DNA of 64,000 nt, from positions 48,973-112,972 of the forward strand of contig NZ_QLNP01000007.1 in assembly GCF_003261175.1 (NCBI RefSeq). The letters are read 5' to 3'. Origin of the DNA: Arthrobacter globiformis. GTDB taxonomy: Bacteria; Actinomycetota; Actinomycetes; Actinomycetales; Micrococcaceae. This document shows positions 24,137 through 41,355 of the stretch, piece by piece. Position 1 is the first letter of the stretch; the number at the start of each line of letters is the position of its first letter. Both the position numbers and the translations under genes were made by a program. The notes beneath the pieces were generated by a model, which was not told where the DNA came from, made no database searches, and was given only the letters and a program-made list of their open reading frames with translations.

Positions 24137-25129
24137 ATGAGCAGAATTCTTGTCACCGGCGGCGCCGGGCGGCTGGGACGCAGTGTCGTTTCGGGCCTCG
24201 CCGCGGCGGGCCACGAGGTGATCTCGGCGGACCGCGACGCTGTCCCGGCCGGCACGTTTCCGGCCGGCGTCGAGCAGGAAACGGCGGACCTGCTGGTTCC
24301 CGGCGAGGCGTTCCGCCTCCTGGAACGCGCAGCGCCCGACGCCGTCATCCACCTCGCTGCTATTGCCGTGCCTTTCAGTGCACCCGAGGAGGTCATTTTC
24401 AGCACGAACACCCGCCTCGCCTTCGCGGTGGTCAGCGCGGCCACCGAACTCGGAATCGGGAAGATCATCACGGCCAGCAGCCCCACGGTCCTGGGCTACG
24501 GCTCACCGGCCGGCTGGCTGCCGGACTCCTTCCCGGTGGACGAGGCCACGGCGCCCCGCCCCTGGAACGCCTACGCGCTGTCGAAACTGATTGCCGAACA
24601 GACGGTGCAGATGTTCGCAGCTGCCCAGGGAGGCCGCATCCGCTATGCGGCCTTTCGTCCCTGCTACGTCATTTCGCCGGAGGAATGGGAGGGTGCCCCT
24701 ACCCAGCAGGGGCACACCGTCCGCGAACGCCTCGCCGACCCCGCCCTGTCCGCGCCGGCCCTCTTCAACTACGTGGATGCCCGTGACGTGGCCGATTTCC
24801 TGGATGTGCTCCTGCGGAACATGGAGTCCATCCCCAACGGCGAGACCTTCTTTGTGGGCGCGGCCGATGCACTGGCCACCGAACCGCTGGCCGCGCTTCT
24901 GCCCCGGTTCCTGCCCGGCAGTGCCGGGCACGCCGCCGGACTCACCGGCACCAGCCCCGCCTTTTCCATCGCCAAAGCCAAGCGGCTGCTCGGCTGGGAA
25001 CCCCGGCGCACGTGGCGCACAGAACTCGCCCGGACAGAGGAAGCCCGAGCCGAGGAAGTCCTGGTCGGCGCCGCCACAGGACCAGTCACCACACGACCAG
25101 CCACCCCCGGATCACAGGAGACCACATGA
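24137..25129 (+). CDS. NAD-dependent epimerase/dehydratase family protein (possible uronate dehydrogenase)
   Basis: 330 residues. Extended SDR: VTGGAGRLGRSV (NAD loop), active-site Tyr146-Lys150 in YALSK, and the sequence of strands up to EPRRTWRTEL. Together with KdgD and an enolase-superfamily protein just downstream, it could fill the role of uronate dehydrogenase, which makes an aldarolactone from galacturonate or glucuronate; this is inferred from neighbours, since many SDRs look alike. The C-terminal 30 residues are an unstructured Thr/Ala-rich tail. Its stop overlaps the next start by four bases (ATGA). Confidence 0.8.
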   Translation: MSRILVTGGAGRLGRSVVSGLAAAGHEVISADRDAVPAGTFPAGVEQETADLLVPGEAFRLLERAAPDAVIHLAAIAVPFSAPEEVIFSTNTRLAFAVVSAATELGIGKIITASSPTVLGYGSPAGWLPDSFPVDEATAPRPWNAYALSKLIAEQTVQMFAAAQGGRIRYAAFRPCYVISPEEWEGAPTQQGHTVRERLADPALSAPALFNYVDARDVADFLDVLLRNMESIPNGETFFVGAADALATEPLAALLPRFLPGSAGHAAGLTGTSPAFSIAKAKRLLGWEPRRTWRTELARTEEARAEEVLVGAATGPVTTRPATPGSQETT

Positions 25130-26031
25130 AACTCGACGGCGTGCTTTTCTTTCCCGTCACCCCCTTCGGCGCCGACGGCGCAGTGGACGTTGATGTCCTG
25201 AAGGAACACATCGCCTCCCGCATGGCGCACCGTCCCGGCGGGGTGTTCCCGGCCTGCGGAACCGGCGAATTCCATGCCCTGAGCATCGACGAGGTGCGTA
25301 CCGTGGTGGCGGCCGCCGTCGAAACCGTCAACGGCCAAGTGCCGGTCATCGCCGGCGCCGGCGGCCCCCTGGGCCACGCGCTGGCCGCGGCCCGCGCAGC
25401 CGAGGAAGCGGGCGCCGACGCGCTGCTGGTCCTGCCGCCGTACCTGGTCTCCGGTCCCACCGACGGCGTGGTGGCCTACATCGAGGCGGTGGCGGGCGCG
25501 AGCAGCCTCCCGGTGATTGTGTACCACCGCGGCACGGCAAAATTCACGGCCAAGGCTATTTCGCGGCTGGCCGCCAACGCCAAGGTGATCGGCTTCAAGG
25601 ACGGGATCGGCGACGTCGGCCTGGCCCAGGAGATCGTCTCCGCCGTGAAGGCCAGCGGCCGGGAGGATTTCCTGCTCTTCAACGGCCTGCTGACCGCCGA
25701 ACTGACGCAGGGCGCCTACCGCGGACTCGGCATCCCGCTGTACTCCTCGGCGGCCTTCGCCATGGCACCGGAGGTCGCCACGGCCTACTACGACGCCTAC
25801 GCCAGCGGCGACGAGGCCCGCCGGGAGGCCCTGCTCGACGGCTTTTACGCGCCGCTTGTGCGCCTGCGGGACCAGACCCCGGGCTTTGGCGTCTCCCTGA
25901 TTAAGGCCGGGCTGCGCCTCAACGGACTGGCGGTCGGACCGGTCCGGCCACCGCTGGTGGACCCCACCGAGGACCAGCTCGTGGAGCTTAAGGCAATCCT
26001 GGCCAAGGGCCACGAGCTGGCCGGCCGCTGA
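25126..26031 (+). CDS. 5-dehydro-4-deoxyglucarate dehydratase (KdgD-like)
   Basis: 301 residues from ATG 25126, in ATGA overlap with the previous gene. Dihydrodipicolinate-synthase superfamily TIM barrel: GVFPACGTGEFHALSIDE substrate loop, Tyr133 in VIVYHRG, Schiff-base Lys158 in VIGFKDGIGD. The length and FPACGTGEF pattern match KdgD enzymes, which convert 5-keto-4-deoxy-glucarate/galactarate to alpha-ketoglutarate semialdehyde, CO2 and water. The semialdehyde dehydrogenase that completes the route is not in this window. The strongest functional anchor of the operon. Confidence 0.88.
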   Translation: MKLDGVLFFPVTPFGADGAVDVDVLKEHIASRMAHRPGGVFPACGTGEFHALSIDEVRTVVAAAVETVNGQVPVIAGAGGPLGHALAAARAAEEAGADALLVLPPYLVSGPTDGVVAYIEAVAGASSLPVIVYHRGTAKFTAKAISRLAANAKVIGFKDGIGDVGLAQEIVSAVKASGREDFLLFNGLLTAELTQGAYRGLGIPLYSSAAFAMAPEVATAYYDAYASGDEARREALLDGFYAPLVRLRDQTPGFGVSLIKAGLRLNGLAVGPVRPPLVDPTEDQLVELKAILAKGHELAGR

Positions 26032-27164
26032 TGGCGGCCAAGATCACGGGGCTCCACTCGCGCCTGATTACGGTGCCGCTGCGGCGCAGCTGGGGTGCTG
26101 ATGCGCCGGAGAACCACATCATCGCCACCAGCCTCTTCACGGACGACGGCGGTGCGGGGCACGGTTTTTCCTGGACGCCCACCATTGGGCCACAGGCCGT
26201 CAAGGCCCTCCTTGACCATGACATCGCCCCATTCATTGCCGGGCTGGACGCCAACCCGGAGATGGTCTGGGACCAGCTCTGGAAACGGCTGCACGAGGCC
26301 GGCGGAGGCGGGCTGACCACCATCGCGATGGCCGGCGTCGATCTGGCCCTCTGGGACCTGGCGGCCCGTGCCGCGGGCGTGTCCGTGGCCGGGCTGCTGG
26401 GCCAGCGCCAGGAATCGGTGGAAATCTACGGGTCGGGCGTGAACCTGCACTACTCCCTCGAGGAACTCGTTGCGCAGACCGAGCGGTGGGTGGCCGCGGG
26501 CCACCGGGCCGTGAAGATCAAGGTGGGCAAGCCGGACCTTGCGGAGGATGCCGAACGCGTGGCAGCGGTCCGCTCGGTGCTCGGCCCGGACCGCCGGCTC
26601 ATGATCGACGCGAACCAGCGCTGGGACCTGCCCGCTGCGCTCCGTGCCCTGGACGTGCTGGGTGAATTCGGCCTGGACTGGCTGGAGGAACCCCTGCGCG
26701 CCGACGACCTCTCGGCCTACCGGCGGCTGCGGAAGCAGTCGCCGGTGCCCATCGCCCTGGGCGAGAACCTCCACACCATCTACCGCTTCCGCGACTTCAT
26801 CGAGGCCGAGGCGGTGGACATCATCCAGCCCAACATCATCCGGGTGGGCGGAATTACGCCGTTCCGGCGCATCGTTGAGCTGGCCCGCGCCAACAGCATC
26901 CGGGTGGCGCCGCACCTGCTGCCCGAGCTGTCCGGCCAGCTGGCCCTGACCCTCGCCGAGGCGGTGAGCGTAGAGGACGTGGAGGACGCCTCCTTCGAAC
27001 AGCTAGGCATTCTGGCCGGCCAGTCGCCGGTCCGGATCCGGAACAGCCGCCTTTACGGCACGGGCCTCCCGGGACTGGGGTTCAGCTTCACCGCGGCACT
27101 CCTGCCCGAGCCGCGGGACCGCAGCTTCGACCTTCCGGCCGACCCGGCGTTCCGGCTCTCGTAG
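26031..27164 (+). CDS. mandelate racemase/muconate lactonizing enzyme family protein
   Basis: 377 residues, start overlapping the previous stop by one base. Enolase superfamily with the MR-type layout: capping domain (residues 1-120), KxK base at Lys162/Lys164 (VKIKVG), metal ligands in IDANQRW (Asp193), LEEP (Glu219/220) and GEN (Glu245), and His295 in VAPHLLPE. Members of this group dehydrate sugar acids or cycloisomerise aldarolactones. Next to KdgD it may act as a galactarolactone cycloisomerase or an aldarate dehydratase; the exact substrate cannot be read from sequence. Confidence 0.85.
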   Translation: MAAKITGLHSRLITVPLRRSWGADAPENHIIATSLFTDDGGAGHGFSWTPTIGPQAVKALLDHDIAPFIAGLDANPEMVWDQLWKRLHEAGGGGLTTIAMAGVDLALWDLAARAAGVSVAGLLGQRQESVEIYGSGVNLHYSLEELVAQTERWVAAGHRAVKIKVGKPDLAEDAERVAAVRSVLGPDRRLMIDANQRWDLPAALRALDVLGEFGLDWLEEPLRADDLSAYRRLRKQSPVPIALGENLHTIYRFRDFIEAEAVDIIQPNIIRVGGITPFRRIVELARANSIRVAPHLLPELSGQLALTLAEAVSVEDVEDASFEQLGILAGQSPVRIRNSRLYGTGLPGLGFSFTAALLPEPRDRSFDLPADPAFRLS

Positions 27165-27278: not shown

Positions 27279-28364
27279 CTAAAGCTGCAGCGTCAGCGGC
27301 CGGGGGAGCCCGTTGACGTCCGACGACGGCCACCGCGGGTCGAGCGTCAGGACGCTGGTTCCCGCCGCCGTCAGCTGGACCGTGTCCTCGATCTTGACGC
27401 CCGGGCCGGACGGATTCCAGGTAAAGGCCTGGTGGGGCACCACGACGTCGTCCGTGGCGGCGGCGGCGGTGGCGCGCGGATCGCGGCCTGCGTAGCCGGC
27501 GGGTCCGCCCTGGTGGTGCAGCGTCCACTGGTCGGCGCCGAAGCCGTGCCGGGCGTACGCGGACTGGATCTCGGTGAAGATGCCGCCGAGCCGGGCGCCC
27601 GGAACCGTGGCAGCGAGGATGTCCGCCTCAACCGCCGCGATGCGTTTCTCGGCGTCGAGCTCGTCGGGGGTGCCGGCGTCGAACCTCACCCACCTGGTCA
27701 CGTTGGCCACCAGGCCGTGCCGCCGGGCGCAGACCACGGCCATGGCGCGGCGGCCCAAGGGTGAGTGGGTGGCCAGCGGGTGCCGGAACGCGTTGCGCGA
27801 GCTGCCGTTGCAGAGCAGAACCAGGGGCTCCGCACCCGCCGCGACGATCCGTGCGGCAAGGGCGGAGGCGACCTCGAACTCAGTGGTCTCCGGCGTCGCC
27901 CGGGACAGGACGTCGGTCATGGCGCCTGCGGCATCCGCGCACAGCTGCGCGTAGCGGGCACTCTCGCCGGGCAGCATGGGCTGCCGGGCTGCCCGCAGTT
28001 CCGTGGCCACGCTCTTCTCTGCCAGCGGCCCGACGGGTCCGGCCAGCGCACCGACGGCGTCCGTGAGCTGGCCGTGCCAGGGAACCGTGTGAAGTTCGAC
28101 GCCGGGTGGCAGCTCTTCGGCGGCGAGCCGTTCCGCCTCATTATTGAAGGTGATGAGGCGGTCGCCGGTCCGGTCCACGAGGAGCGCCGCGATCGGGTCG
28201 CCCGCCAGACTGATGTGCACGCGGCTGCCGTCCAGATACCAGGCGAGGGCGGTGTGGCTGGTCAGCAGGAGCGAGTCGCGCCCCGCGGCGTCGAGAATGT
28301 CCAGCACCCGCCGCCGCTTTCTCGCCCGGTCCGCCAGCGCCTGGCCAACCTGCCCGGCGTTCAT
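27279..28364 (-). CDS. M24-fold (Xaa-Pro peptidase/creatinase-like) protein lacking canonical metal ligands
   Basis: 361 residues. A creatinase N-terminal domain (about 1-135) and a pita-bread C-terminal domain (GESARYAQLCADAAGAMTDVLS through EDTVQLT) place it in peptidase family M24. In active metallo-members two Asp lie in a D-x(10)-D block ending SDxTR; here that region reads RRHGLVANVTRW, with no Asp. HHQGGPAGY and VKIEDTV keep only part of the rest. It may be metal-independent like creatinase, or non-catalytic. Its ATG overlaps the stop of the fusion gene at 28361-30397 (ATGA), so the two are translationally coupled. Confidence 0.8.
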   Translation of the reverse strand: MNAGQVGQALADRARKRRRVLDILDAAGRDSLLLTSHTALAWYLDGSRVHISLAGDPIAALLVDRTGDRLITFNNEAERLAAEELPPGVELHTVPWHGQLTDAVGALAGPVGPLAEKSVATELRAARQPMLPGESARYAQLCADAAGAMTDVLSRATPETTEFEVASALAARIVAAGAEPLVLLCNGSSRNAFRHPLATHSPLGRRAMAVVCARRHGLVANVTRWVRFDAGTPDELDAEKRIAAVEADILAATVPGARLGGIFTEIQSAYARHGFGADQWTLHHQGGPAGYAGRDPRATAAAATDDVVVPHQAFTWNPSGPGVKIEDTVQLTAAGTSVLTLDPRWPSSDVNGLPRPLTLQL

Positions 28365-30397
28365 GAGCTGGCCTCCATGCCCGTCACCAGTGCGTCAATG
28401 TCAGCGGTTCCAAGCCGTGCATCGGACACGAACACGGTGACACTCCTGGTGACCGATTCGCCGGGCTGCAGGAGCACCGGCTCCTCCCAAGCGAGCGATT
28501 GTCCGACACCTGGATAACTGCCGACCCGCACGAACCACCGATCGTGGCAATCCGTCGGGGCTGTGAAGACCAGCGTGGCCGGTTCTTCGTCGAAGGTTCC
28601 GCTCCACGCGAGCCACTGGCTCACGGATCCATGCACAGCGGCCTCCCCGGATGCCGCCGGGGACCAAACACGTGCATCGTCGCTGGAAGCCAGGCGCCAG
28701 AAGAACCCGCCGTAGCCGCCTAGCCGCCGCCCGTTGGAACCGGGGCTGCCCAGGCTGACGGGAGCGTCACCCGCCGGCGTCAGGGTGAAGTCGAGTGTCA
28801 GGCGCCAGGTCTGAAGGTCGACGGCGGCCCACGCCCAGTTGCGCTGCTCCCCCAGGACCGGGGCGCCGTCGGGTCCGTTCCAGGACAGTACCTCAGACAG
28901 CGCACCGCCGGATGAGTCACTGCTCGTTGGGGTGCGCACAATCGTGCCGTGGTCCGGGCGCCAGACGTAGCGGCCAGCCTCGCGCGTGTACGTCCGCCCG
29001 CCCCAGAAGTTGATGCCGTTGACGTCCTGCACTGCCACTCCGGCGCCAAGGTGCCACACGTGATCGGTGGGCTGGTGGTCAGTCACCACGGTGCCGGCCA
29101 GCGTGCGAACCGGATGCAGGTAAGGCCGCGGGGATGAGATGGGGCGTATGCGGCTGCCATCCTGATAGCTGGCTACTTCGCGTCCGGCGACCGTGCAAAT
29201 GGCGGCTGGCTCCAGCGGTCTGGCCCACGGTGCGCCCAGTTCGGAGAACGTTGCCTGGGCGAGAGCGGCCCGTTCGATGAGTTCAGCGATTCCCTCCACG
29301 ACGGGGTGGGCATCATCGCCGCTGCCTTCCCACTTGATGTACCTGTCGTCGATCTGCTGCGGTGCGGGTGCCGTTCGGATTGCTTCGAGCACAGCCATAA
29401 AGGCTCCCGAGCCGGACAGCGGACTGAGCAGCTCCCCGCCCGCGGCGCGTACCTCCAGCAGATTCTCCAGCAGATCCGTGCGGGGGAATACTTCCCGGCG
29501 CTCGCCGTGGTCAGTGCTCACCACGAGTTCATCCTCCGTGTAAAAGAGCTCTGCCTTGCCAGCCGTGCCGAAAACAGTGATGGAAGGACGCGTCTGCCGG
29601 GCGGCGCAAAGGGTCAGGGCGCAAGTGAGAACCTGTCCCGCGGAGGTGAGGACCCGGATCACAGACGTGTCGTCGCTTTCAGTAGGGTGGGCGCGGTAGA
29701 GATCGGTGTCCACGCTGGCCACATCATCCAGGGTGCGGGCAGCGGCGATGCTCAGACCCGTCACGACGGCGTGTGCCAGCGCGTTGGTGGCGACGCCGTC
29801 AACAACATCGGTTCCGTTGATTGCCCGCTTGCCGGCCCAGCACGAGCGCTTGAAGTAGCCGCGCGTCCTGAGCCAGGTTCCCGAGGCGCCCAGTCCGAGC
29901 ACGTCACCGATCTCCCCGTCCGCGATAAGCCGCCGGATGGCGGGCAGCGCTCCAGATCCCAGGCTCTGGAAGCCAACCTGGACGAGCCGGCCTGCCGACT
30001 CGGCGGCCTGCAGCAGTTCCTGGAACTGCTGCAGGGACGCTGCGGGGGGCTTCTCCACGTAAACGTCCGCGCCTGCGCGCAGGGCAGCAATGGCGAGGGG
30101 AACATGCGTCTGGATGGGGGTGGCCAGGATGACGACATCCGGAGCGGTCCCCGCCTGAAGGAGGTGATCGAGGGTCTCGAAGACGGCTACGGAGCCGTCC
30201 AGGACTCCGTCTGCGGGAGGGCGGGGGTCCGCAACTGCCACGAAATCGAGCACTCCGGAGGCCTCCAGCCGGGCCAGGTTGGCCAGGTGCCGCGCGCCGA
30301 AACCGTGCACGCCGACGAGGGCGATCCGGGGGACCTGGTTCTGCGCCTTTTGGGGACCGGCGGCGCGAGAGGGAGCGTAAGCGGAAGGTAGCGACAT
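28361..30397 (-). CDS. Gfo/Idh/MocA dehydrogenase fused to DUF6807 (PmoA-like) domain, copy 1
   Basis: 678 residues. Residues 24-145 form a Rossmann domain (IALVGVHGFGARHLANL, VYVEKPPAAS with EKP at 115-117). About 150-340 form the oxidoreductase C-terminal domain (VQVGFQSLGSGAL, DVVDGVATNALAH). From about 400 on lies a DUF6807/PmoA-like region (SPRPYLHPVRTLAGTVVTDH, VWHLGAG, NGINFWGGRTY, GYGGFFWR). The His/Asp residues of the PYLHP and DHxxxDHxWH blocks could bind metal. A 700-residue paralog is at 36301-38364. The domain pair suggests oxidation of a sugar followed by a second step on the product. Operator B lies 69 bases upstream of the start. Confidence 0.88.
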   Translation of the reverse strand: MSLPSAYAPSRAAGPQKAQNQVPRIALVGVHGFGARHLANLARLEASGVLDFVAVADPRPPADGVLDGSVAVFETLDHLLQAGTAPDVVILATPIQTHVPLAIAALRAGADVYVEKPPAASLQQFQELLQAAESAGRLVQVGFQSLGSGALPAIRRLIADGEIGDVLGLGASGTWLRTRGYFKRSCWAGKRAINGTDVVDGVATNALAHAVVTGLSIAAARTLDDVASVDTDLYRAHPTESDDTSVIRVLTSAGQVLTCALTLCAARQTRPSITVFGTAGKAELFYTEDELVVSTDHGERREVFPRTDLLENLLEVRAAGGELLSPLSGSGAFMAVLEAIRTAPAPQQIDDRYIKWEGSGDDAHPVVEGIAELIERAALAQATFSELGAPWARPLEPAAICTVAGREVASYQDGSRIRPISSPRPYLHPVRTLAGTVVTDHQPTDHVWHLGAGVAVQDVNGINFWGGRTYTREAGRYVWRPDHGTIVRTPTSSDSSGGALSEVLSWNGPDGAPVLGEQRNWAWAAVDLQTWRLTLDFTLTPAGDAPVSLGSPGSNGRRLGGYGGFFWRLASSDDARVWSPAASGEAAVHGSVSQWLAWSGTFDEEPATLVFTAPTDCHDRWFVRVGSYPGVGQSLAWEEPVLLQPGESVTRSVTVFVSDARLGTADIDALVTGMEASS

Positions 30398-30465
30398 GCG
30401 GGTTGATCCTTGCGTGGGAAGTACTGCTGGACAGGGAGGGAAACGCAGGCACTAACACCGTACCT

Positions 30466-30481
30466 GAGAAAGCGTTTTCTC
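30466..30481. promoter_or_regulatory. LacI-type operator B
   Basis: GAGAAAGCGTTTTCTC is the exact reverse complement of operator A (22608-22623), so as duplex DNA the sites are identical. It lies upstream of the minus-strand fusion gene starting at 30397, inside a 330-base stretch without larger genes. Confidence 0.75.
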
Positions 30482-30521
30482 ACACGTCCCCGAGGGGTGG
30501 TTTCGCTTCTTTGTCAGGAGG

Positions 30522-30537
30522 TGGAAAGCGTTTTCCT
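30522..30537. promoter_or_regulatory. LacI-type operator C
   Basis: TGGAAAGCGTTTTCCT, the same TGGAAAGCGTTTTCC core as operator E before the solute-binding protein gene. Located between the divergent fusion gene and the ABC permease genes. Confidence 0.7.
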
Positions 30538-30566
30538 GAATTTCCGAAATAATCTGTACATCGCCT

Positions 30567-30580
30567 TGGAAAGCGTTTAC
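30567..30580. promoter_or_regulatory. LacI-type operator D (imperfect)
   Basis: TGGAAAGCGTTTAC differs from operator C by one base over this stretch and is 45 bases downstream of it, close to four helical turns, so C and D could bind a looped or tetrameric regulator. A TAATCT -10-like hexamer sits at 30550. Confidence 0.55.
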
Positions 30581-30727
30581 CGTTGTACCGACCGCTTCAC
30601 AGCAGTGACGGGGGGCACAAATCGCTCCCGCTGAACGAAGCACTAAACCGCGGCAATGGGCGGTCCCGGGACTTCCTGGGACGGACCCCCGGGCGCGGGA
30701 ATGGCCACGATGACCAAAGGAGACCGC

Positions 30728-30778
30728 ATGGCCGCTCAACACATACCTAAGCCGCAACGAGCGAGGTGCGCGCCGTGA
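30728..30778 (+). CDS. 16-residue upstream ORF coupled to the ABC permease
   Basis: ATG behind a strong AAAGGAG site encodes MAAQHIPKPQRARCAP and its TGA overlaps the GTG start (30775) of the permease as GTGA. The permease has no equally good site of its own, so ribosomes that finish this peptide probably re-initiate. Likely a translational coupling device; no sign of a regulatory codon cluster. Confidence 0.55.
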   Translation: MAAQHIPKPQRARCAP

Positions 30779-31719
30779 GTGCCATCAGCGAACTCACCTC
30801 CCTCTCGCGCCGCAAGGGGCCGAAGACCGCCGAAGAGAAGAAGGCAAACGGTCGGGACAACAAAGCCGCCTACATCTTCCTGCTGCCGTGGCTGGTGGGA
30901 CTCGTGGCCATCACCGTCGGTCCCATGGTCATGTCGCTGTACCTCTCTTTCACCGACTACAACCTGATCCAGGCCCCGGAGTGGGTAGGCCTGGAGAACT
31001 TTCAGCGGATGTTCACCGACGCCAGGCTGCACAATTCGCTCGGGGTGACGTTCACGTACGTACTCGTGGGCGTTCCGCTGCAGCTGGCGGTTGCCCTGCT
31101 GATCGCACTGGTGCTGGACAAGGGCCTGCGCGGCCTGCCGTTCTACCGGTCCATCTTCTACTTGCCGTCCCTGCTGGGCGGTTCGGTGGCCATCGCTATC
31201 CTGTGGAAGCAGATCTTCGGCACCACAGGCCTCGTGAATCAGGTTCTGGCCCTTGGCGGCATTGAAGGGCCGGGGTGGATCTCCGACCCGAGCACGGCTC
31301 TTGGCTCGATTATCCTGCTCCATGTCTGGACTTTCGGCGCTCCGATGATCATCTTCCTGGCCGGCCTGCGCCAGATTCCGAACATGTACTACGAAGCCGC
31401 CGAGGTGGACGGGGCCACCAAGCTCCAGAAGTTCTGGCGGATCACCCTTCCGCTGCTGAGCCCCATCATCTTCTTCAACCTGGTGCTGCAGATCATTGGA
31501 TCATTCCAGTCGTTCACCCAGGCATTCATCGTCTCTGGCGGCAACGGCGGGCCTTCCGATTCGACCATGTTCTTCACGCTCTACCTCTACCAAAAGGGCT
31601 TCGGCCAGTTTGATATGGGATACGCCTCGGCCATGGCCTGGTTCCTGCTGGTCATCATCGGCGCCTTCACTGCCATCAACTTCATCGCTGCAAAGTATTG
31701 GGTTTTCTATGACGACTAA
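30775..31719 (+). CDS. carbohydrate ABC transporter permease (MalF-like)
   Basis: 314 residues from GTG 30775 (a GTG three codons upstream is possible). Six hydrophobic helices and the binding-protein-dependent permease EAA loop YYEAAEVDGATKLQKFWRITLPLL near residues 205-226, which docks the cytoplasmic ATPase. Family CUT1, for oligosaccharides or glycosides. Its 3' end overlaps the second permease gene by 11 bases. No ATPase gene is found in the operon; CUT1 systems in actinobacteria often share one MsiK-type ATPase encoded elsewhere. Confidence 0.92.
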   Translation: MSAISELTSLSRRKGPKTAEEKKANGRDNKAAYIFLLPWLVGLVAITVGPMVMSLYLSFTDYNLIQAPEWVGLENFQRMFTDARLHNSLGVTFTYVLVGVPLQLAVALLIALVLDKGLRGLPFYRSIFYLPSLLGGSVAIAILWKQIFGTTGLVNQVLALGGIEGPGWISDPSTALGSIILLHVWTFGAPMIIFLAGLRQIPNMYYEAAEVDGATKLQKFWRITLPLLSPIIFFNLVLQIIGSFQSFTQAFIVSGGNGGPSDSTMFFTLYLYQKGFGQFDMGYASAMAWFLLVIIGAFTAINFIAAKYWVFYDD

Positions 31720-32656
31720 GCTGGAGACGCTTCCCGCCCCGAGCAACAAAGCTTCGGCCGGCAAGCCAACGAACCCCCGAAGGCCGCGCAAGAACCGCGA
31801 ATCACGCGGCAGCCTTGCCTTTAGCCGCAGCGCGCGGACCAATGCACTGATCAAGCACGCGATACTGATCGTCAGCGGCGGAGTCATGATCTACCCGCTG
31901 CTGTGGATGGTTGTTTCCTCGCTGCGCGCCAATGAACTCATCTTCCGCGACCCTGGCCTGTGGCTCAACACCCTGGAAATGGGCAACTACACGGACGGAT
32001 GGTCAGCGCTGACCCACGGGTTCGGCCACTACATGATCAATTCCGCGGTGGTTGTGCTGGGATCAATCCTGGGCAACCTGATCTCCTGCTCCATGGCTGC
32101 CTATGCCTTCGCAAGGCTCCAGTTCACAGGGCAAAAGATCTTCTTCGGCATCATGCTGCTCACCATCATGCTGCCGTTCCACGTGGTGATTGTCCCGCAG
32201 TACATCCTGTTCTCGCAGATCGGCTGGGTGAACACCTTCTGGCCGCTCATCGTTCCGAAGCTGCTGGCCACCGACGCGTTCTTCGTGTTCCTCATGGTCC
32301 AGTTCATCCGGGGGATCCCTAAGGAACTGGATGAGGCGGCAAGGATCGACGGCGCCGGCCACCCGCGGATCTTCCTCCGCGTGATTCTGCCGTTGATGGT
32401 CCCGGCGCTGGCCACCACCACCATCTTTACCTTCATCTGGACGTGGAACGACTTCTTCGGGGCCCTCATCTATCTGACGGACCCCGACATGTTCACCGTT
32501 CCCGTAGCGCTCCGGGCGTTCGTGGATTCGCAGTCCGCCACAAGCTGGGGCTCACTCTTCGCCATGTCCATCGTTTCGCTCCTGCCCGTGTTCCTGGTTT
32601 TCCTCTTTGGGCAAAGGTTCCTCATCAAGGGAATCGCCACGACCGGCATCAAGTAG
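31709..32656 (+). CDS. carbohydrate ABC transporter permease (MalG-like)
   Basis: 315 residues from the ATG at 31709, inside the end of the previous gene. A basic N-terminus of about 45 residues precedes six helices (HAILIVSGGVMIYPLLWMVVSSLRA first). The EAA loop reads ELDEAARIDGAGHPRIFLRVILPLM. Pairs with the MalF-like permease to form the CUT1 channel. Followed after 145 bases by the solute-binding protein, which has its own operator, so importer components may be expressed at different levels. Confidence 0.92.
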   Translation: MTTKLETLPAPSNKASAGKPTNPRRPRKNRESRGSLAFSRSARTNALIKHAILIVSGGVMIYPLLWMVVSSLRANELIFRDPGLWLNTLEMGNYTDGWSALTHGFGHYMINSAVVVLGSILGNLISCSMAAYAFARLQFTGQKIFFGIMLLTIMLPFHVVIVPQYILFSQIGWVNTFWPLIVPKLLATDAFFVFLMVQFIRGIPKELDEAARIDGAGHPRIFLRVILPLMVPALATTTIFTFIWTWNDFFGALIYLTDPDMFTVPVALRAFVDSQSATSWGSLFAMSIVSLLPVFLVFLFGQRFLIKGIATTGIK

Positions 32657-32739
32657 GGCGGATGAACGCTGGGCTCCGGCCCGGCATCGAGGGCGCCCTG
32701 TCCAATCAAGCCACGTGCTTGTAATACAAGACAGATACT

Positions 32740-32766
32740 TATAACATTAGTTGGAAAGCGTTTTCC
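32740..32766 (+). promoter_or_regulatory. -10 element and LacI-type operator E
   Basis: TATAAC (32740-32745) followed seven bases later by TGGAAAGCGTTTTCC (32752-32766), the same arrangement as at 22597-22623. A CTTGTAATACAAG palindrome lies just upstream. Gives the solute-binding-protein gene its own repressible promoter. Confidence 0.75.
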
Positions 32767-32801
32767 TTCTCCTTCAAGATCAAAGAAGATCGGAGTGAAC
32801 T

Positions 32802-34157
32802 GTGCAACTGTTCTCCAAATCTGGCCCTGATGCCGAGGCCAGCCGGACCCAGGTAACTAAGACCCCGCGATGGCTGCGAAAGGCGGGAGTGGTTGCCGCC
32901 GCAGCGGCCGCCGTCCTTGCGCTCAGCGCCTGTGGCGGGGGATCTGCCGCCCAGAGCGCCGACGGAAAGGTTGAACTCCGTTTCTCCTGGTGGGGCAGCG
33001 ACAAGCGGGCGCAGGTGACCCAGGAGGCCATCAAGGCCTTCGAAGCCGAGAACCCGAACATCAAGATCAAGCCGGAGTACGGCGACTGGAGCGGTTACTG
33101 GGACAAGCTGGCCACGCAGGTGGCCGCGAACGACGCTCCGGACATCATCCAGATGGACGAAAAGTACATCACCGAGTACTCCAGCCGCGGAGCGCTGCTT
33201 GACCTCTCGAAGTACGACATCGACACGTCCAAGCTCGACGAGGCCACCCTGAAGGCGGGCCAGAGCGACGACGGCCTGACGGGTATCCCGGCCGGCATCA
33301 ATGCAGCCACCATCCTTGCGAACCCGGCTGTGTTCAAGGCTGCAGGTGTGGCATTGCCCGACGACGCGACCTGGACCTGGGAAGACTTCGAGCGCATTTC
33401 GGCCGAAGTCACCGCCAAATCCCCGAAGGGCACCTACGGCGCGGCCGCCTACGGGACCGACGAGGCATCCCTCGGAGTATGGCTGAGGCAGAACGGAAAG
33501 TCCCTCTACACCGAAGACGGCAAGCTCGGCTTTGAGCCCGCGGACGTCGCCGCCTGGTGGGCGTTCCTGAAACAGATGAGTGAGGGCAAGGCGGTTCCCT
33601 CGGCGTCGGAGGTTGTTGAAGCTGAAGCAGCGCCCCTGGACCAGAGCGGTCTCGCAACGGGTAAGAATGGACTCGCCTTCTGGTGGTCCAACCAGCTTCC
33701 CGCCCTCGAAAAGGCCGCGGGCTCGGAACTGAAGGTTCTCAGGTTCCCCACAAAGACCGGCTCCGCCGCTGATGCCCAGCTCTGGTACAAGGCCTCGCAG
33801 TTCTGGTCGGCATCCTCCAGGACCAAGCACCCTGAGGAAGTCGCCAAGTTCATCAACTTCCTGGCAAACGACACCAAGGCCGGCGAAGCACTCCTGGCCG
33901 ACCGCGGTGTCTACCCGAACACCGATGTGCGCGAGGCGATCTCCACCAAGCTGACCCCCGCGGACGTCAAAGTTGTGAAGTTCATCGACCAGATCAAGAA
34001 CGAACTGGGTGAGGCTCCTGCCCCGCCGCCGAAGGGCGCAGGCGCCATCCAGGAAATCATTAAGCGCTACACCTCGGAGGTGCTGTTCAACAGGCTCTCG
34101 ACAGATGAAGCCGGCAAGAAAGCGGTGGATGAGATGACCTCAGCCATCAGCAGCTAG
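32802..34157 (+). CDS. extracellular sugar-binding lipoprotein of ABC transporter
   Basis: 451 residues, GTG start. N-terminal basic region, hydrophobic AGVVAAAAAAVLALSAC and lipobox LSAC (Cys about residue 45), then a Gly/Ser-rich linker and a family-1 solute-binding domain (ELRFSWWGSDKRAQVTQEAIKAFEAENPNIKIKPEYGDW). Captures an oligosaccharide outside the membrane for the permeases encoded upstream. Ligand not readable from sequence; the neighbouring GH42 and rhamnose genes suggest a galactoside- or rhamnose-containing oligosaccharide. Followed by a strong terminator shared with the convergent GH42 gene. Confidence 0.92.
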   Translation: MQLFSKSGPDAEASRTQVTKTPRWLRKAGVVAAAAAAVLALSACGGGSAAQSADGKVELRFSWWGSDKRAQVTQEAIKAFEAENPNIKIKPEYGDWSGYWDKLATQVAANDAPDIIQMDEKYITEYSSRGALLDLSKYDIDTSKLDEATLKAGQSDDGLTGIPAGINAATILANPAVFKAAGVALPDDATWTWEDFERISAEVTAKSPKGTYGAAAYGTDEASLGVWLRQNGKSLYTEDGKLGFEPADVAAWWAFLKQMSEGKAVPSASEVVEAEAAPLDQSGLATGKNGLAFWWSNQLPALEKAAGSELKVLRFPTKTGSAADAQLWYKASQFWSASSRTKHPEEVAKFINFLANDTKAGEALLADRGVYPNTDVREAISTKLTPADVKVVKFIDQIKNELGEAPAPPPKGAGAIQEIIKRYTSEVLFNRLSTDEAGKKAVDEMTSAISS

Positions 34158-34173
34158 CTCCACCACGGGAAGC

Positions 34174-34216
34174 AAAACCCCCGGGCCGTCTCCCAAGGGA
34201 GATTGCCCGGGGTTTT
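34174..34216. terminator. bidirectional intrinsic terminator
   Basis: AAAACCCCCGGGC pairs with GCCCGGGGTTTT around an inner CTCCC/GGGAG hairpin; A- and T-runs on the two flanks serve both strands. Sits between the convergent solute-binding-protein and GH42 genes. Confidence 0.85.
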
Positions 34217-34245
34217 CCGTGCGGTCAAATACTCCAGAGAAACGG

Positions 34246-36261
34246 TCAGTCTTCGGCGATCACGGCAACCGCTCCGCCGGGGACAATGCCGCCGAAACGG
34301 CCGCCGCCCAACAGTTCCTCGCCGTCGGCCTTCACTTCCGCGTCCTCCGGGCCGTGGTTGATGGCGAAGAGGAAACGGCGCCCGTCTGCGCTGACCCGTC
34401 GGGTCAGTTCGACGCCGGCAGCGGCCTCCGCGCACGCTGCCACTCCCGCTTCGGCCAGGAGCCGGTCCAGCAGGCGTTCGATGCCGTCGCGGTCGGGGAG
34501 GGTGGCCAGGTACCAGGCGGCACCGCGGCCGGTGCTCCTCCAGGTCAGTGCGGGCACGCCGGAGAGCGGGTAGCCGGTGAACGTGGCCACCGCCTCGGCC
34601 CCGGCAAGGTGGACGTGCTCGCTCCAGACCCGGCCAAGGGTGCCGTCGCTCAGTGTCACCTGCCCGCCCTCGAGCAGCGGGTGGAACTCCTCGGCCCGGA
34701 TGCCCAGCAGCTCCCGGAAAGCACCGGGGTAGCCGCCCAGCCTGATGTGGTCGCGTTCGTCGACGATGCCGCTGAAGTAGCCGACCAGCACGGTCGCACC
34801 GGCCTCGGCAGCACCGGCGATGTTGGCCGCGGCGGCATCGGTGACGCAATAGAGCGTGCACACCAGGACCAGGTCGTAGCCGGAGAAGTCGGCGGAGGGA
34901 GGGACGAAGTCCACGCCCACGCCGCGCAGGAACAGCGAGCGGTGGAATTCCCGGATCAGGTCGAGATATTTCACGTCCTCGCTTGGATGCGAGTCCAGTT
35001 CGCTGGCCCACCATGCCTCGTAGTCGAACACGATGGCCACACGGGATTCCACGGTGGAGCCTTTGACCGGGCCAAGCCGCTGCAGGGCTTCGCCGAGGGC
35101 CACCACTTCCCGCCATACCCGGGTGTCGCGCCCGCCGTGCGGCACCATCGCCGAATGGAACTTCTCCGCGCCGGCAACGCTCTGCCGCCACTGGAAGAAC
35201 ATGACGGCGTCGGCGCCGCGGGCCACGTGGGCCAGCGAGTTGCGGAGCATTTCGCCGGGCATCTTCGGCTGGTTGCGGGCCTGCCAGTTCACGGCCGACG
35301 TCGAGTGTTCCATCAGGATCCACGGCCTGTTTCCCGCGACGCCACGCGTGAGGTCCGCGCTGAACGCGAGTTCGATTTCGCGCTCCGGATCTGCGGCCAC
35401 GAGGTAGTGGTCATTGGCCACCACATCCAGGTCCTTCGCCCAGTCGAAGTAGTCAAGGGACTTGGTGGCGCTGGACACCATGAGGTTGGTGGTGGCCGGA
35501 ACGTTGGGGGTCAGCTCGCGGATAACTGCCAGCAGGCTCCGGTAGTAGTCCATCAGTGCCCAGGAGCTGAACCGCTGGAAGTCCAGCCGCTGCGTCGGAT
35601 TGAGGGTGGTGGGGGCGGCCCGCGGCGGGATGATCTCCTCGAACGAGGCATAGTGCTGGGACCAGAAGGCCGTTCCCCAGGCCTCGTTCACTGCCTCAAT
35701 GCTGCCGTACCGCCGCTCCAGCCAGAGCCGGAACGCCGCGGCGTCCTCGTCGCCGTAGAACTCTGAAACGTGGCAGCCCAGTTCGTTGTCCACGTGCCAC
35801 AGCGCCAGCGCCGGATGGTCCTTGTACCGTTCGGCCAGTGTCCGGGTAATGCCTGTGGCATACCGGCGGTAAACAGCGGACGACGGCGAGTAGTGCCGCC
35901 GGGAGCCGCGTTCCAGGACGGTGCCCTCCGCCGTTACCGGCAGGACTTCCGGATACTTCCGCACCAGCCAGGCCGGGGGAGCGGCCGTGGCGGTGGCGAG
36001 GGCAACCCTGATGCCCGCGCCGTCCAGGCTGTCCAGCACCTCGTCCAGCCAGGCAAAGTCGTACTCGCCTTCACTCGGCTCGAGAAGTGCCCAGGAAAAG
36101 ATGGCCACGCTGAGGAGGGTCACCCCGGCCTCCTTCATGAGGCCGATGTCCTCCAGCCGGACGTCGGCCGGCCACTGCTCGGGGTTGTAGTCCCCGCCAA
36201 ATGCCAGGCCGGGGCCGCTGTTCCAGAGGGGATCTTGAGGAGAGGCTTCTTGCTCGGGCAT
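34246..36261 (-). CDS. glycoside hydrolase family 42 beta-galactosidase
   Basis: 671 residues, ATG 36261 behind AGGAGCCCC. GH42 TIM barrel with FGGDYNPEQWP at the start, acid/base Glu160 in WHVDNELGCH and nucleophile Glu318 in WILMEHSTSAVNWQ, then trimerisation and C-terminal domains. Releases terminal beta-galactose from small oligosaccharides such as galacto- or arabinogalacto-oligosaccharides of plant cell walls. No signal peptide, so cytosolic. It is 39 bases downstream of the second MocA-DUF6807 fusion gene and likely co-transcribed with it. Confidence 0.95.
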   Translation of the reverse strand: MPEQEASPQDPLWNSGPGLAFGGDYNPEQWPADVRLEDIGLMKEAGVTLLSVAIFSWALLEPSEGEYDFAWLDEVLDSLDGAGIRVALATATAAPPAWLVRKYPEVLPVTAEGTVLERGSRRHYSPSSAVYRRYATGITRTLAERYKDHPALALWHVDNELGCHVSEFYGDEDAAAFRLWLERRYGSIEAVNEAWGTAFWSQHYASFEEIIPPRAAPTTLNPTQRLDFQRFSSWALMDYYRSLLAVIRELTPNVPATTNLMVSSATKSLDYFDWAKDLDVVANDHYLVAADPEREIELAFSADLTRGVAGNRPWILMEHSTSAVNWQARNQPKMPGEMLRNSLAHVARGADAVMFFQWRQSVAGAEKFHSAMVPHGGRDTRVWREVVALGEALQRLGPVKGSTVESRVAIVFDYEAWWASELDSHPSEDVKYLDLIREFHRSLFLRGVGVDFVPPSADFSGYDLVLVCTLYCVTDAAAANIAGAAEAGATVLVGYFSGIVDERDHIRLGGYPGAFRELLGIRAEEFHPLLEGGQVTLSDGTLGRVWSEHVHLAGAEAVATFTGYPLSGVPALTWRSTGRGAAWYLATLPDRDGIERLLDRLLAEAGVAACAEAAAGVELTRRVSADGRRFLFAINHGPEDAEVKADGEELLGGGRFGGIVPGGAVAVIAED

Positions 36262-36300
36262 GGGGCTCCTTTGCCGGGACGGTGCTGACCCTGTCTTAGG

Positions 36301-38364
36301 CTAGCGCCGCGCCACCAGGGATGCGACGGCGGCCGGCGACAGTTCGCCGTCGCACACCCACACGCTGAGGCTCCGTTGCAGCGATTCCCCGGCAGCCAGG
36401 GCCACCGGCTTGTCCCAGGCCAGGGCCGATCCGACGGCGGGGTAGCCGGAGCAGCGGACAAACCAGGGATGGGCGGACTCGGCCGGAGCGCTGAACACGA
36501 GGGTCGCGGGCTGCCCGGACCTGATGCCTGGGACTTCGCCGAAGGAGGCGGTCCAGGCCAGCCACGGCGCCACGGAACCGTGGACGGCCGGTTCGCCCTC
36601 GGCGTCGGACGTGAAGATGCGGGCGCCGCTGCAGGCCGGAAGGCGCCAGAAGAAGCCGCCGTAGCCGCTGCCCGCGGCACCGTTGGAGCCGGGGCTGCCC
36701 AGTGAAACGTCGACGACGGCGGTCAGTTCCGTGCCCAGGTCCAGGCGCCATACGCGCTCGCCGAGGACTTCGCGGCTGGCGGTCCGCTGTTCGGTGAGCA
36801 GGGGCTGTCCGTCCGTGCCGAGCCAGCGGAGCTGCCGGACGTCCGGCTCGTTCGGCATGTCCGAACCCGGGGGAAGCAGTTCGATCCGGCCGTGGTCCTG
36901 CCGGGAGACGTACGCTCCGGCGTCGCGTGTGTATGTCCTGCCGCCCCAGAAGTTGGTGCCGTTGACGTCCTGGAGTGCGAAGCCGGCGCCGAGATGCCAC
37001 GGATGGTCGGCGGGGAGATGGTCCGTCACGAGAGTTCCGCCGAGCGTGCTGACGGGGTGCAGGTAGGGGCGCGGCGATAACCCAGCGTTGAGCCGCGCGC
37101 CGGTGCGCTGGACTGCGAGCGGACGGCCGCCGTCGTCGTCGAACAGCACTGTGGCGGCGGCAGGATCAGCCGGCCGCGCCCACGGCAGGGCCAGTTCACT
37201 GAAGGTGGCGTGTGCGCCGATGGCCCGCTCCAGGGCGTCCTCGATCCCCGGGATCACCGCATGGGCGGCCTCGCCGTCGCCCTCCCAGCGCACGTAGCCA
37301 GAAGTGAGCGGCGCCGGCGGTTCGGCCGTGCGGACGGCCTCGAGCACCAGCATGAACGCACCGGAGTCGTTGAGGGCGCTGGTGAGTTCCGAGCCTTCGG
37401 CCAGGTGCTCCAGCAGGTTTTCGGTGAGGTCGTCGCGGCCGAACTCCAGCGAGTGCTCCCCGTCCGCGTTGCTGACGTGCAGCCGGTCTTTCGTGTAATG
37501 GAAGACGGCCGTTCCCCGGGAGCCCTGCAGGGTGATGTACGGCTCCACGGACTCCGACGCGCAGAGCGTCAGGGCGCACGTGATCGGCAGACCGGCGGAG
37601 GTCCGGATCCGAATGACCGACGTGTCGTCGGCCTCGATGTCGTTTGCGCGGTAGAGGTCCGTCTCCACGGAGGACACGTCATCGACGGTCCGGGCGCCCG
37701 CGATCCGCAGTGCGGTGGCGATGGCGTGCGCCAGGGGATTGGTGGCCACACCGTCCACCACGTCCACGCCATCCATGCTCCGCTTGCCGGCCCACCGGGA
37801 ACGCTTGTAGTAGGCGCGGTCCCGCACCCAGCGCCCGGTTGCACCGATCCCCTGCAGGGTGCCGATGGTGCCGTCCCTGAGGAGCTCGTCAATGGCCGCC
37901 AGCGCCTGCGATCCGAGGCTCTGGAAGCCGATCTGCACGCTGCGCCCGGATGCTTCAGCGGCCTCCTGCAACTGCCGGAAGTCGGCCAGCGACGCCACCG
38001 GGGGTTTCTCCAAATAGAGGTCGGCGCCGGAGGCAAGGGTGGCCAGGGCAAGCGGCGCGTGGGTCTGGATGGGGGTGGCCACGATGACCACGTCCAGGCC
38101 GTGCTCGCCGGCCAGGAGGGACTGCAGGTCGGGGTGGACCGCCGTCGAGTCCGGCAGCGCTCCCGGGGACGGCGGATTGGGGTCCGCCACGGCCACGAGT
38201 TCCACCGCGCCGGCCCGGGTCAGCCGTTCGAGATTCTTCAGGTGGTGGGCGCCGAAGCCGTGGACGCCGATCAGCGCGACGCGGGCGGGACCGGTGCGGC
38301 GCGGGGAGGCGGCTTTGGCGGCCGGCAGGGTTGGCGGGCCGGGCTGCGTCAGAGGGGTATCCAT
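36301..38364 (-). CDS. Gfo/Idh/MocA dehydrogenase fused to DUF6807 (PmoA-like) domain, copy 2
   Basis: 687 residues from ATG 38364 (AGGAGC upstream). Same architecture as 28361-30397: Rossmann domain with VALIGVHGFGAHHLKNL and LYLEKPPVAS, oxidoreductase domain with VQIGFQSLGSQAL and DVVDGVATNPLAH, then DUF6807-like region with SPRPYLHPVSTLGGTLVTDH, PWHLGAGFALQDVNG, NFWGGRTYTRDAG and GYGGFFWR. The many identical blocks show that the two arose by duplication of an already fused gene. Followed by GH42. Operator F is in front of it. Function inferred only: oxidation and further processing of a glycoside. Confidence 0.88.
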   Translation of the reverse strand: MDTPLTQPGPPTLPAAKAASPRRTGPARVALIGVHGFGAHHLKNLERLTRAGAVELVAVADPNPPSPGALPDSTAVHPDLQSLLAGEHGLDVVIVATPIQTHAPLALATLASGADLYLEKPPVASLADFRQLQEAAEASGRSVQIGFQSLGSQALAAIDELLRDGTIGTLQGIGATGRWVRDRAYYKRSRWAGKRSMDGVDVVDGVATNPLAHAIATALRIAGARTVDDVSSVETDLYRANDIEADDTSVIRIRTSAGLPITCALTLCASESVEPYITLQGSRGTAVFHYTKDRLHVSNADGEHSLEFGRDDLTENLLEHLAEGSELTSALNDSGAFMLVLEAVRTAEPPAPLTSGYVRWEGDGEAAHAVIPGIEDALERAIGAHATFSELALPWARPADPAAATVLFDDDGGRPLAVQRTGARLNAGLSPRPYLHPVSTLGGTLVTDHLPADHPWHLGAGFALQDVNGTNFWGGRTYTRDAGAYVSRQDHGRIELLPPGSDMPNEPDVRQLRWLGTDGQPLLTEQRTASREVLGERVWRLDLGTELTAVVDVSLGSPGSNGAAGSGYGGFFWRLPACSGARIFTSDAEGEPAVHGSVAPWLAWTASFGEVPGIRSGQPATLVFSAPAESAHPWFVRCSGYPAVGSALAWDKPVALAAGESLQRSLSVWVCDGELSPAAVASLVARR

Positions 38365-38436
38365 GGTGCTCCTGTCCGGCGCTGCGGTGCTGCGCGACGC
38401 CATCGTCTACCGTCGCCGGGAGCGTTCGCACAGGCG

Positions 38437-38452
38437 TGGCAAGCGCTTTCCC
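38437..38452. promoter_or_regulatory. LacI-type operator F
   Basis: TGGCAAGCGCTTTCCC, a variant of the TGGAAAGCG-type site with central GCGC, 73 bases upstream of the copy-2 fusion gene and downstream of the LacI gene. Confidence 0.6.
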
Positions 38453-38525: not shown

Positions 38526-39551
38526 TTAGTGGGGCGCGTCAGCTCCGGCAGTGCTGTGCCGGACCACCAGCTCGGGCGTAAACACGACGGCGCGGTGCTG
38601 CGGGTGCTGCGCGTCCAGCTCTTCGGTCAGGAGTTCAATGGCGGTCCTGCCGATTGCGTCGGTGGGCTGGCGGATGGAGGAGAGCGGCACCACGGCGGAC
38701 ACGGCGAAATCGATGTCGTCGTAGCCGATCAGGGCCACGTCCTCCGGAATGCGAACACCGTTCATCATGGTCAGCGACTGCATCACGCCGAGCGCCAGCA
38801 GGTCGTTGGCGCAGAAGATGCCGTCCGGCATGTCGCCGGCACCCCGGTCCACGAGGCTGTTGCCCAGGCCGCGACCGGCAAGCACGGACTGGCCGTCCGA
38901 GTCGAGTATCTCCAGTGTTGCACCGTCCACCTCGTCCACGGCCCGGCGGGCGCCGAGGAGGCGGTCGGAGACCTGGCGGATGGACAGCGGCCCGCCCACG
39001 AAGGCTAACTTCCTCCGCCCGAGATCGAGGAGGTGCCGGGCGGCAAGGTAGCCGCCGGCGTCGTCATCCACCGATACGGAACTGAAGCGGTCCTCGTCGG
39101 CTCGCCGGTCCACCAGCACCGTGGGAACACCGCGCTGTCGGAGGGCTTCCAGCCGGTCGGCCACGTCGCCCACCGGGGAGATGAGCAGGCCCTGGACCCG
39201 CTGTTCCTGGAAGAGGTCGATGTAGTGCGATTCCCGGTTCGCGTCGTGGCCGCTGTCGCCCAGCAGCACGGCGCTGCCGTTCATGGCGGCAGCGTCCTCG
39301 GCGGCGCGGACCAGCGACGTGAAGAAGGGGTTGCCGACGTCCAGGACCACGACGCCGATGGTCCGGCTGTGCCCAGCACGCAGCTGCCGGGCGGCGTCGT
39401 TGCGGACGAAGCCGAGCTCGTCGATAGCTTGCAGCACCCTGTCCTTGGTGCGCTTGGAGACGCGGTCAGGGTTGTTGAGGACGTTGGAGACGGTTCCCAC
39501 TGCGACCTGCGCATGGGTGGCGACGTCCTTGATGCTGGCGGCCCGTGACAT
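38526..39551 (-). CDS. LacI-family regulator, probable rhamnose regulator
   Basis: 341 residues. LacI head SIKDVATHAQVAVGTVSNVLNNPDRVSKRTKDRVLQAIDELGF, then a sugar-sensor domain (IGVVVLDVGNPFFTSLVRAAEDAA through DVALIGYDDIDFAVSAVVPLSSI). Divergent from rhaM with clear operators between (39589-39652), so control of the rhamnose operon is likely. It may also act on operator F, which lies just downstream of it and before the copy-2 fusion gene. Confidence 0.9.
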   Translation of the reverse strand: MSRAASIKDVATHAQVAVGTVSNVLNNPDRVSKRTKDRVLQAIDELGFVRNDAARQLRAGHSRTIGVVVLDVGNPFFTSLVRAAEDAAAMNGSAVLLGDSGHDANRESHYIDLFQEQRVQGLLISPVGDVADRLEALRQRGVPTVLVDRRADEDRFSSVSVDDDAGGYLAARHLLDLGRRKLAFVGGPLSIRQVSDRLLGARRAVDEVDGATLEILDSDGQSVLAGRGLGNSLVDRGAGDMPDGIFCANDLLALGVMQSLTMMNGVRIPEDVALIGYDDIDFAVSAVVPLSSIRQPTDAIGRTAIELLTEELDAQHPQHRAVVFTPELVVRHSTAGADAPH

Positions 39552-39744: not shown

Positions 39745-40113
39745 ATGAGGGTTTGCTTCCGCTCCTCCGTCCAGCCGGAGCTGCTGGGGGAGTACCGCCG
39801 GCGCCACGCCGCCGTCTGGCCGGAGATGCTGGCCGCGCTCAAGGACGCGGGCTGGAACAACTACTCGCTGTTCATGGACGGCGACGGGCTGCTGATCGGC
39901 TACCTCGAATGCGACGACTTTGACTCGGCGCGGGCCCGGATGGCCCTCACAGACGTCAACGCCCGCTGGCAGGCGGAGATGGCCACGCTCTTCCGGGACA
40001 GTGATGTTCCGCCGGACGAGGGCTTCCGGGTCCTCGATGAGGTGTTCAACCTTGAGGAGCAGCTGGCCGCCGCAACCGGCAGCAACGCTGCCGCCGTCGT
40101 CGTCGAGCACTAA
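39745..40113 (+). CDS. rhaM: L-rhamnose mutarotase
   Basis: 122 residues. Interconverts alpha- and beta-L-rhamnose. Matches the RhaM/YiiL family in length and motifs: MRVCFRSSVQPELLGEYRRRHAAVWPEMLAALKDAGWNNYSLF (catalytic His in RRRHAAVWPEM) and the end with DEVFNLE, followed by a short Ala-rich tail of about 20 residues. First gene of the rhamnose operon, 62 bases before rhaI, expressed from the promoter at 39598. Confidence 0.93.
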   Translation: MRVCFRSSVQPELLGEYRRRHAAVWPEMLAALKDAGWNNYSLFMDGDGLLIGYLECDDFDSARARMALTDVNARWQAEMATLFRDSDVPPDEGFRVLDEVFNLEEQLAAATGSNAAAVVVEH

Positions 40114-40174
40114 AGCTTTCAAGCACTGAATCCTCCAACAACTTTCACTGCCAAACACTGACGAAAGACTGATC

Positions 40175-41353: not shown

Positions 41354-41355
41354 GC

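Follow-up and report, generated by a model that had tools for sequence, protein, structure and literature searches.

Two fusion proteins in a sugar island

The DNA analysed here, a stretch of 64,000 nucleotides from Arthrobacter globiformis referred to below as the window, encodes two proteins in which a sugar dehydrogenase of the Gfo/Idh/MocA (GFO) family is joined to a DUF6807 domain. Copy 1 (678 aa; 28361..30397, minus strand) was delineated from the list of open reading frames (ORFs), Pfam matches, pairwise alignment and a structure model. It carries the GFO Rossmann domain at residues 24-143 (29969..30328, minus strand; PF01408, E 4.6e-19, and alignment to WlbA, 3q2k) and DUF6807 at residues 402-671 (28385..29194, minus strand; PF14100, E 1.6e-67). 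Copy 2 (36301..38403, minus strand), delineated from the ORF list, Pfam and pairwise alignment, is 700 aa long, or 687 aa if started at the second ATG at 38364, and carries DUF6807 at residues 425-697 (36313..37131, minus strand; PF14100, E 1.7e-60). A preliminary description of this DNA had claimed two such fusions, and both domains do lie far over the Pfam cut-offs in each ORF. The nicotinamide adenine dinucleotide (NAD)-binding Rossmann domain PF01408 scored 69.7 bits in copy 1 and 62.5 bits in copy 2 at a cut-off of 24, and PF14100 scored 228.4 and 205.3 bits at a cut-off of 27. The two copies are identical in 377 of 682 aligned columns (55%). The nearest named relatives found for copy 1 were Arthrobacter and Pseudarthrobacter proteins of 54-78% identity (5 of 12 loci).

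The GFO part of both fusions contains EKPP (Lys116 in copy 1, Lys133 in copy 2) and N-x3-H (His209 with Asn205 in copy 1, His226 in copy 2), the latter lying outside the Rossmann domain of copy 1. We take the EKP lysine and the histidine of the D-x3-H motif, with their roles, to be the GFO motif positions; the Asp of this motif is replaced by Asn in both copies, as it is in WlbA. The alpha/beta C-terminal fold of GFO proteins was found as well, and the full-length model of copy 1 had a mean predicted local distance difference test score (pLDDT) of 82.0 and a predicted template modelling score (pTM) of 0.74.

Besides the two window copies, no further DUF6807 domain over the cut-off was found in the genome. 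An 85-residue frame (L003; G000:C79:91507-91614) with a DUF6807 score of 17.9 bits, below the cut-off and uncounted, is perhaps a remnant.

Fold and conserved residues of DUF6807

The DUF6807 domain of copy 1 was also modelled alone, which resulted in a beta-rich structure (pLDDT 84.5, pTM 0.87). It is predicted to be a galactose-mutarotase-like supersandwich with the fold of that superfamily, and its fold matches were largely supersandwich domains, many of them from glycosidases. Conservation was evaluated in a 110-row alignment of DUF6807, in which the two window copies were entered twice. The histidines of an H-x2-H motif, H446 and H449, and R624 were kept in 110 of 110 rows, and D445 and E517 in 109. 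The conserved polar residues sought in the C-terminal domain are accordingly present as a His/Asp/Glu/Arg set, and the PYLHP and DHxxH blocks reported earlier occur in both copies.

A relative of DUF6807 with a solved structure was sought by sequence and none was found. Comparison with aldose-1-epimerases by hhalign was not significant, the set being 20 script-read proteins of which some starts or frames are probably wrong. PF06439 (DUF1080) gave no Pfam match at E <=1e-3 in either fusion and a DUF1080-like identity was set aside on that account; DUF1080 was also missing from the listed fold matches, which does not exclude likeness. Identity with the methane oxygenase PmoA found no support, as the PmoA/AMO membrane domain was unmatched in either fusion and the model is beta-rich. 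In the available part of a metatranscriptome study (PMC10291797) PF14100 was used as the model for PmoA, and the PmoA count given there is probably misassigned, PF14100 being DUF6807. The available part of PMC10971088 mentions DUF6807 by name only, without function. A literature search, thin on subscription journals and preprints, returned no function for DUF6807, and neither the present fusion nor a LacI–DUF6807 fusion appeared in the listed titles and abstract openings.

Distribution, pairing and phylogeny

Within the genus, 87 of 121 genomes carry PF14100, as do 21 of 396 genomes sampled across the phylum, the genome under study being included in both counts. It was also found in 45 of 199 genomes of a second family, within which two genera carried it in 33/60 and 7/7 genomes. 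The fusion itself, which had been put forward as a possible novelty, recurs across the genus and in Microbacteriaceae-like genomes, and a one-off fusion or assembly artefact was rejected because the fusion is found in many genomes. A total of 101 distinct DUF6807 frames comprised 29 fused to GFO, 5 fused to LacI and 67 fused to neither. At places with short flanks, GFO was either fused to DUF6807 or encoded on the same strand no more than ~1.5 kb away in 68 of 77 cases (9 fused, 56 separate and 3 LacI-fused with GFO beside). The proximity expected by chance is ~2%, by simple arithmetic from the 29 PF01408 places in the 4.88 Mb of the genome under study. Genes in GC-rich loci were called by a simple script and several neighbours were named by eye. 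In Streptomyces-like genomes GFO of the same subfamily and DUF6807 are adjacent separate genes (L043, L044, L057-L061). As the two occur as separate neighbouring genes elsewhere, the window fusion represents an established gene pair that has been joined, and since the adjacent pair is mirrored by the fusion the two parts plausibly share one job.

All 29 fused rows fell together in the GFO tree with moderate support (84/75). The DUF6807 tree agrees, with 31 fused rows together (window copies entered twice) at a support of 91 in the SH-like approximate likelihood ratio test (SH-aLRT). The GFO tree places each window copy in its own supported clade of the genus, which indicates an old rather than a recent duplication; as judged from these sequences, copy 1 and copy 2 are old paralogues.

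A second type of DUF6807 was observed in loci L151, L152, L156, L158 and L238, where GFO and DUF6807 are encoded separately and a cupin gene adjoins them. The cupin was matched by Pfam in L152 only and by sequence similarity in L151, L156, L158 and L238. Some loci of this type also hold an ATP-binding cassette (ABC) importer and a LacI gene.

DUF6807 fused to LacI repressors

In 24 genomes from three Microbacteriaceae-like genera (17, 6 and 1 genomes) DUF6807 is joined to the C-terminus of a LacI1-type repressor, a fusion that is new in this analysis. The junctions are similar in all loci (L099, L102, L104, L106, L108, L209-L223 and L225-L228); in L221 the DUF6807 part is split over two frames. 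A LacI DNA-binding domain was found in all five proteins checked by Pfam, and a GFO gene follows LacI–DUF6807. The LacI-fused domains keep D445, H446, H449, E517 and R568 in 24/24 cases and R624 in 23/24, with one gap, while N463 is replaced by Ser in 24/24. As read by eye, an ABC importer, LacI–DUF6807 and GFO seem to make up the whole local unit in L099, L102, L104, L210, L216 and L217. The 12 LacI-fused rows used in the DUF6807 tree formed one clade together with one unfused row, and two changes are required for LacI-type loci in the GFO tree. The LacI–DUF6807 fusion provides a genetic handle, in that either the substrate or the product of DUF6807 should act as its inducer.

Association with a sugar-acid pathway

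The window also contains a set of sugar-acid genes on the plus strand. These encode a second GFO dehydrogenase of the cluster (490 aa; 22638..24110), a short-chain dehydrogenase/reductase (SDR)/epimerase-type protein with weak matches, uronate dehydrogenase among others (24137..25129), and a KdgD-type 5-dehydro-4-deoxyglucarate dehydratase (25126..26031). The latter scored 395.5 bits with NCBIfam PRK03620 (cut-off 278) and 274.5 with the KdgD equivalog model, under its cut-off of 373.95. Next in order is an enolase-superfamily protein that is probably a sugar-acid dehydratase, no equivalog being over cut-off (26031..27164).

Enolase, KdgD and SDR genes were likewise found nearby in the copy-1 loci of the genus that were read outside the window (L004, L005, L112, L114, L116-L119). 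They were also found in 7 of 13 fused loci of the second family (L092, L094, L096, L097, L105, L107, L127), often with an aldehyde dehydrogenase alongside. In one genus (n=60) an orthologue of the enolase-type dehydratase was carried by 30 of the 33 genomes with DUF6807 and by 1 of the 27 without (Fisher p 1.6e-12, with genomes treated as independent though they are not). Orthologues were defined by an identity of at least 53%, a cut set after the matches were seen, and the gene is split in G714. The single DUF6807-negative genome with an orthologue is a 77%-complete assembly. In six of these genomes (G344, G704, G712, G716, G738, G768) the sole DUF6807 is LacI-fused, and there the enolase gene is >250 kb distant or sits on a different contig. 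The available part of PMC5342196 agrees with the association of DUF6807 and enolase found here: on a cosmid attributed to Verrucomicrobia, a PF14100 gene may share an operon with a gene of the enolase superfamily and with those for two new beta-galactosidases.

Near the separate gene pair of Streptomyces-like genomes are genes for an ABC importer, for IlvD/EDD and DHDPS-family proteins, for GH43 and for enzymes active on pectin. In L128 a pectinesterase/pectate lyase, a GDSL esterase and GH43 adjoin the separate pair, and by eye the same holds for L120. The smallest units consist of a major facilitator superfamily (MFS) transporter and the fusion (L091) or of ABC genes, LacI–DUF6807 and GFO (L102, L104, L216). 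No glycosidase was recognised by eye beside these four, the family scan having covered part of the neighbours. A module of GFO, a DUF993 protein and an AP_endonuc_2-type isomerase was also seen near DUF6807 or the KdgD cluster (L125, L168, L230), DUF993 being identified by Pfam in L125 only and by eye in L168 and L230.

Other genes and operators of the island

An M24-fold, creatinase-like protein (27279..28364, minus strand; PF00557, a 21-row alignment and a PDB alignment) is encoded by an ORF that overlaps copy 1 by 4 nt, which makes the translational coupling proposed in the preliminary description plausible. Its Cys212, Asn221 and Asn317 align with two Asp and one Glu of a PDB prolidase. 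These three residues, several Arg, H283, H284 and E326 are invariant in the 21 rows, among which at least two genes appear twice. Only the His and the last Glu remain of what we take to be the five M24 metal ligands (Asp, Asp, His, Glu, Glu). The protein is probably a creatinase-like enzyme that works without metal, in the same pathway. It is a frequent partner of copy 1.

The GH42 beta-galactosidase (34246..36261, minus strand) had likewise been described as coupled to copy 2. Co-transcription is probable, but there is no overlap and GH42 starts 39 nt downstream of copy 2. As a conserved trait this coupling was rejected, GH42 being the next gene in 0 of 6 other copy-2 loci (L006, L007, L008, L111, L113, L115). 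Divergent from copy 1 on the plus strand are ABC permease 1 (30766..31719), permease 2 (31709..32656) and a sugar-binding protein identified by profile matches (32802..34157). The LacI-family regulator LacI2 (38526..39551, minus strand; Pfam) lies upstream of copy 2, and LacI1 (21459..22472, minus strand) is the regulator whose relatives bear DUF6807 in other genomes. Genes for rhamnose catabolism (RhaM, a RhaI-like protein, an aldolase/SDR fusion and an FGGY kinase; 39745..44924, plus strand) are followed by an AXE1-type acetyl esterase (44965..45987, plus strand). The class II aldolase/SDR fusion of the rhamnose operon spans 41341-43422. The joint occurrence of galactose, rhamnose, acetyl and sugar-acid genes suggests rhamnogalacturonan-I or arabinogalactan-type glycans.

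Putative LacI-type operators were found, as described earlier, in the gaps upstream of both fusions. Three palindromes (30467, 30523 and 30568; 30467..30581) lie between copy 1 and the ABC genes and one lies before copy 2 (38438..38451). Other sites were found in the gaps before LacI1/GFO (22609), the binding protein (32753) and LacI2 (39589). The palindrome GGAAAGCGYTTTCC with <=3 mismatches had 22 matches in the window compared to 9.3 expected, a count equalled or exceeded in 1 of 100 shuffles; a palindrome is counted on either strand, and part of the matches are remote from the island.

Proposed function and its alternatives

We propose, at a probability of roughly 0.4, that the fusion is an enzyme acting oxidoreductively on pectin-type uronosides before an aldarate pathway, with GFO oxidising the substrate and DUF6807 processing the keto intermediate. 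This reading is put forward because of the GFO pairing, the catalytic-looking residues, the small units in which no glycosidase was recognised and the sugar-acid context. Each fusion would act in the cytoplasm on an imported pectin-type saccharide containing galacturonic acid, rhamnose or galactose. The GFO domain would oxidise a ring hydroxyl, most likely at C3, with NAD, and the keto intermediate, possibly channelled between the domains, would be taken over by the mutarotase-fold DUF6807. There the His-x2-His/Glu/Arg set may perform the next acid-base step, either removal of an alpha-proton with elimination or hydration, or an epimerisation. We infer that C3 oxidation may in this manner be coupled to bond cleavage within the fusion. 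The product would then enter a route to 2-oxoglutarate via SDR, enolase dehydratase, KdgD and aldehyde dehydrogenase.

Several observations weigh against this proposal. GFO was lacking nearby in 9 of 77 DUF6807 places, and enolase, KdgD and SDR genes in 6 of the 13 fused loci of the second family (L091, L093, L095, L100, L101, L110). Three DUF6807-positive genomes lack the dehydratase orthologue (G715, G722, G744), and among the 27 negative genomes 8 show weaker, uncounted dehydratase matches of 34-41% identity. G515 and G569 carry the fusion, accompanied by an MFS transporter, but have neither KdgD over the cut-off nor a close dehydratase orthologue. A DUF6807 fused to LacI would be scarce as an enzyme and, to our knowledge, the mutarotase-like fold is not a known eliminase fold. 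Furthermore, the acid dehydratase, the KdgD/DHDPS-family protein and the aldehyde dehydrogenase of relatives fit oxidation at C1 about equally well.

Oxidation at C1 would make GFO a uronate or aldose dehydrogenase and DUF6807 a mutarotase or a lactonase/lactone isomerase, and together they would carry out steps one and two of an oxidative route for sugar acids without phosphorylation. The mutarotase fold and the acid-pathway neighbours agree with this main alternative, and we consider it possible, if somewhat less likely. The core pathway however already has an SDR gene (14 loci), and L102, L104 and L216 have no recognised downstream acid enzyme beside GFO, such genes being located elsewhere in the genomes. 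The profile comparison with aldose-1-epimerases was not significant, and within the C-terminal half of DUF6807 an Arg is invariant but no Glu is conserved >88%.

Many glycosidases include a supersandwich domain, and such enzymes account for much of the fold list; LacI, the other fusion partner of DUF6807, is a sensor protein. DUF6807 might on these grounds be a non-catalytic sugar-binding module that sets the specificity of the dehydrogenase or the repressor. This is improbable, as the conserved His/Asp/Glu/Arg set resembles a catalytic site and 67 of the 101 DUF6807 frames lack a fusion to either this GFO type or LacI1.

The fusions, the usual partnership with GFO, the residue conservation and the link to enolase and KdgD make DUF6807 a defined enzymology question. 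A speculative and rather unlikely extension is that DUF6807 is a new type of keto-sugar enzyme with a mutarotase fold, completing the oxidation by GFO within a single chain, and that the fusions constitute a new two-domain oxidoreductive uronoside-cleaving class. In the Microbacteriaceae-like genera the domain would then have been transferred to the C-terminus of the LacI of its own pathway, yielding a repressor able to produce or remove the inducer to which it responds.

Comparison with known systems

GFO-family precedents for C3 oxidation with cleavage are GH188 and GH109, as described in the available part of PMC10755693. SqgA of GH188 and GH109 share the GFO fold with the window proteins and use NAD in a transient C3 oxidation that leads to cleavage (PMC10755693). 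A DUF6807 partner is unmentioned in that part of the source, and the window proteins are only distantly similar, with weak matches to the Rossmann part only (8qc2, E 6e-5, residues 18-145; 6t2b, E 2.9e-5, residues 23-168). That GFO alone is such an NAD-recycling glycosidase, with DUF6807 merely mutarotating the released sugar, would suit the existence of GFO-family glycosidases and the small operons with one transporter, but is very improbable as no specific sequence tie to GH188 or GH109 was seen.

In the C-deglycosylation system of DgpA and DgpB/C, GFO oxidises C3 and a separate partner cleaves, according to the available part of PMC8563793. That partner consists of an isomerase/epimerase-like alpha subunit and a beta subunit and is metal-dependent (PMC8563793), whereas in the window the partner is DUF6807 and is fused. 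DUF1080 3-ketoglycoside hydrolases (BT2157 and a proposed Caulobacter enzyme) act together with a 3-dehydrogenase on keto-glycosides, as described in the available part of PMC9007349. They differ from the window fusions, in which PF06439 was unmatched and for whose DUF6807 mostly supersandwich domains were listed as fold matches. Galactose mutarotase/aldose-1-epimerase in turn shows no significant profile similarity to DUF6807, and the conserved residues appear to differ.

By sequence and by structure, WlbA (3q2k) with NADH and UDP-GlcNAcA ranked first among the matches to the GFO part, a rank tied with many others. WlbA oxidises C3 and has a biosynthetic role. It shares with the window proteins the GFO fold and the N-x3-H variant of the catalytic motif, but acts on a UDP-sugar and is a 370-residue chain without a DUF6807 part.

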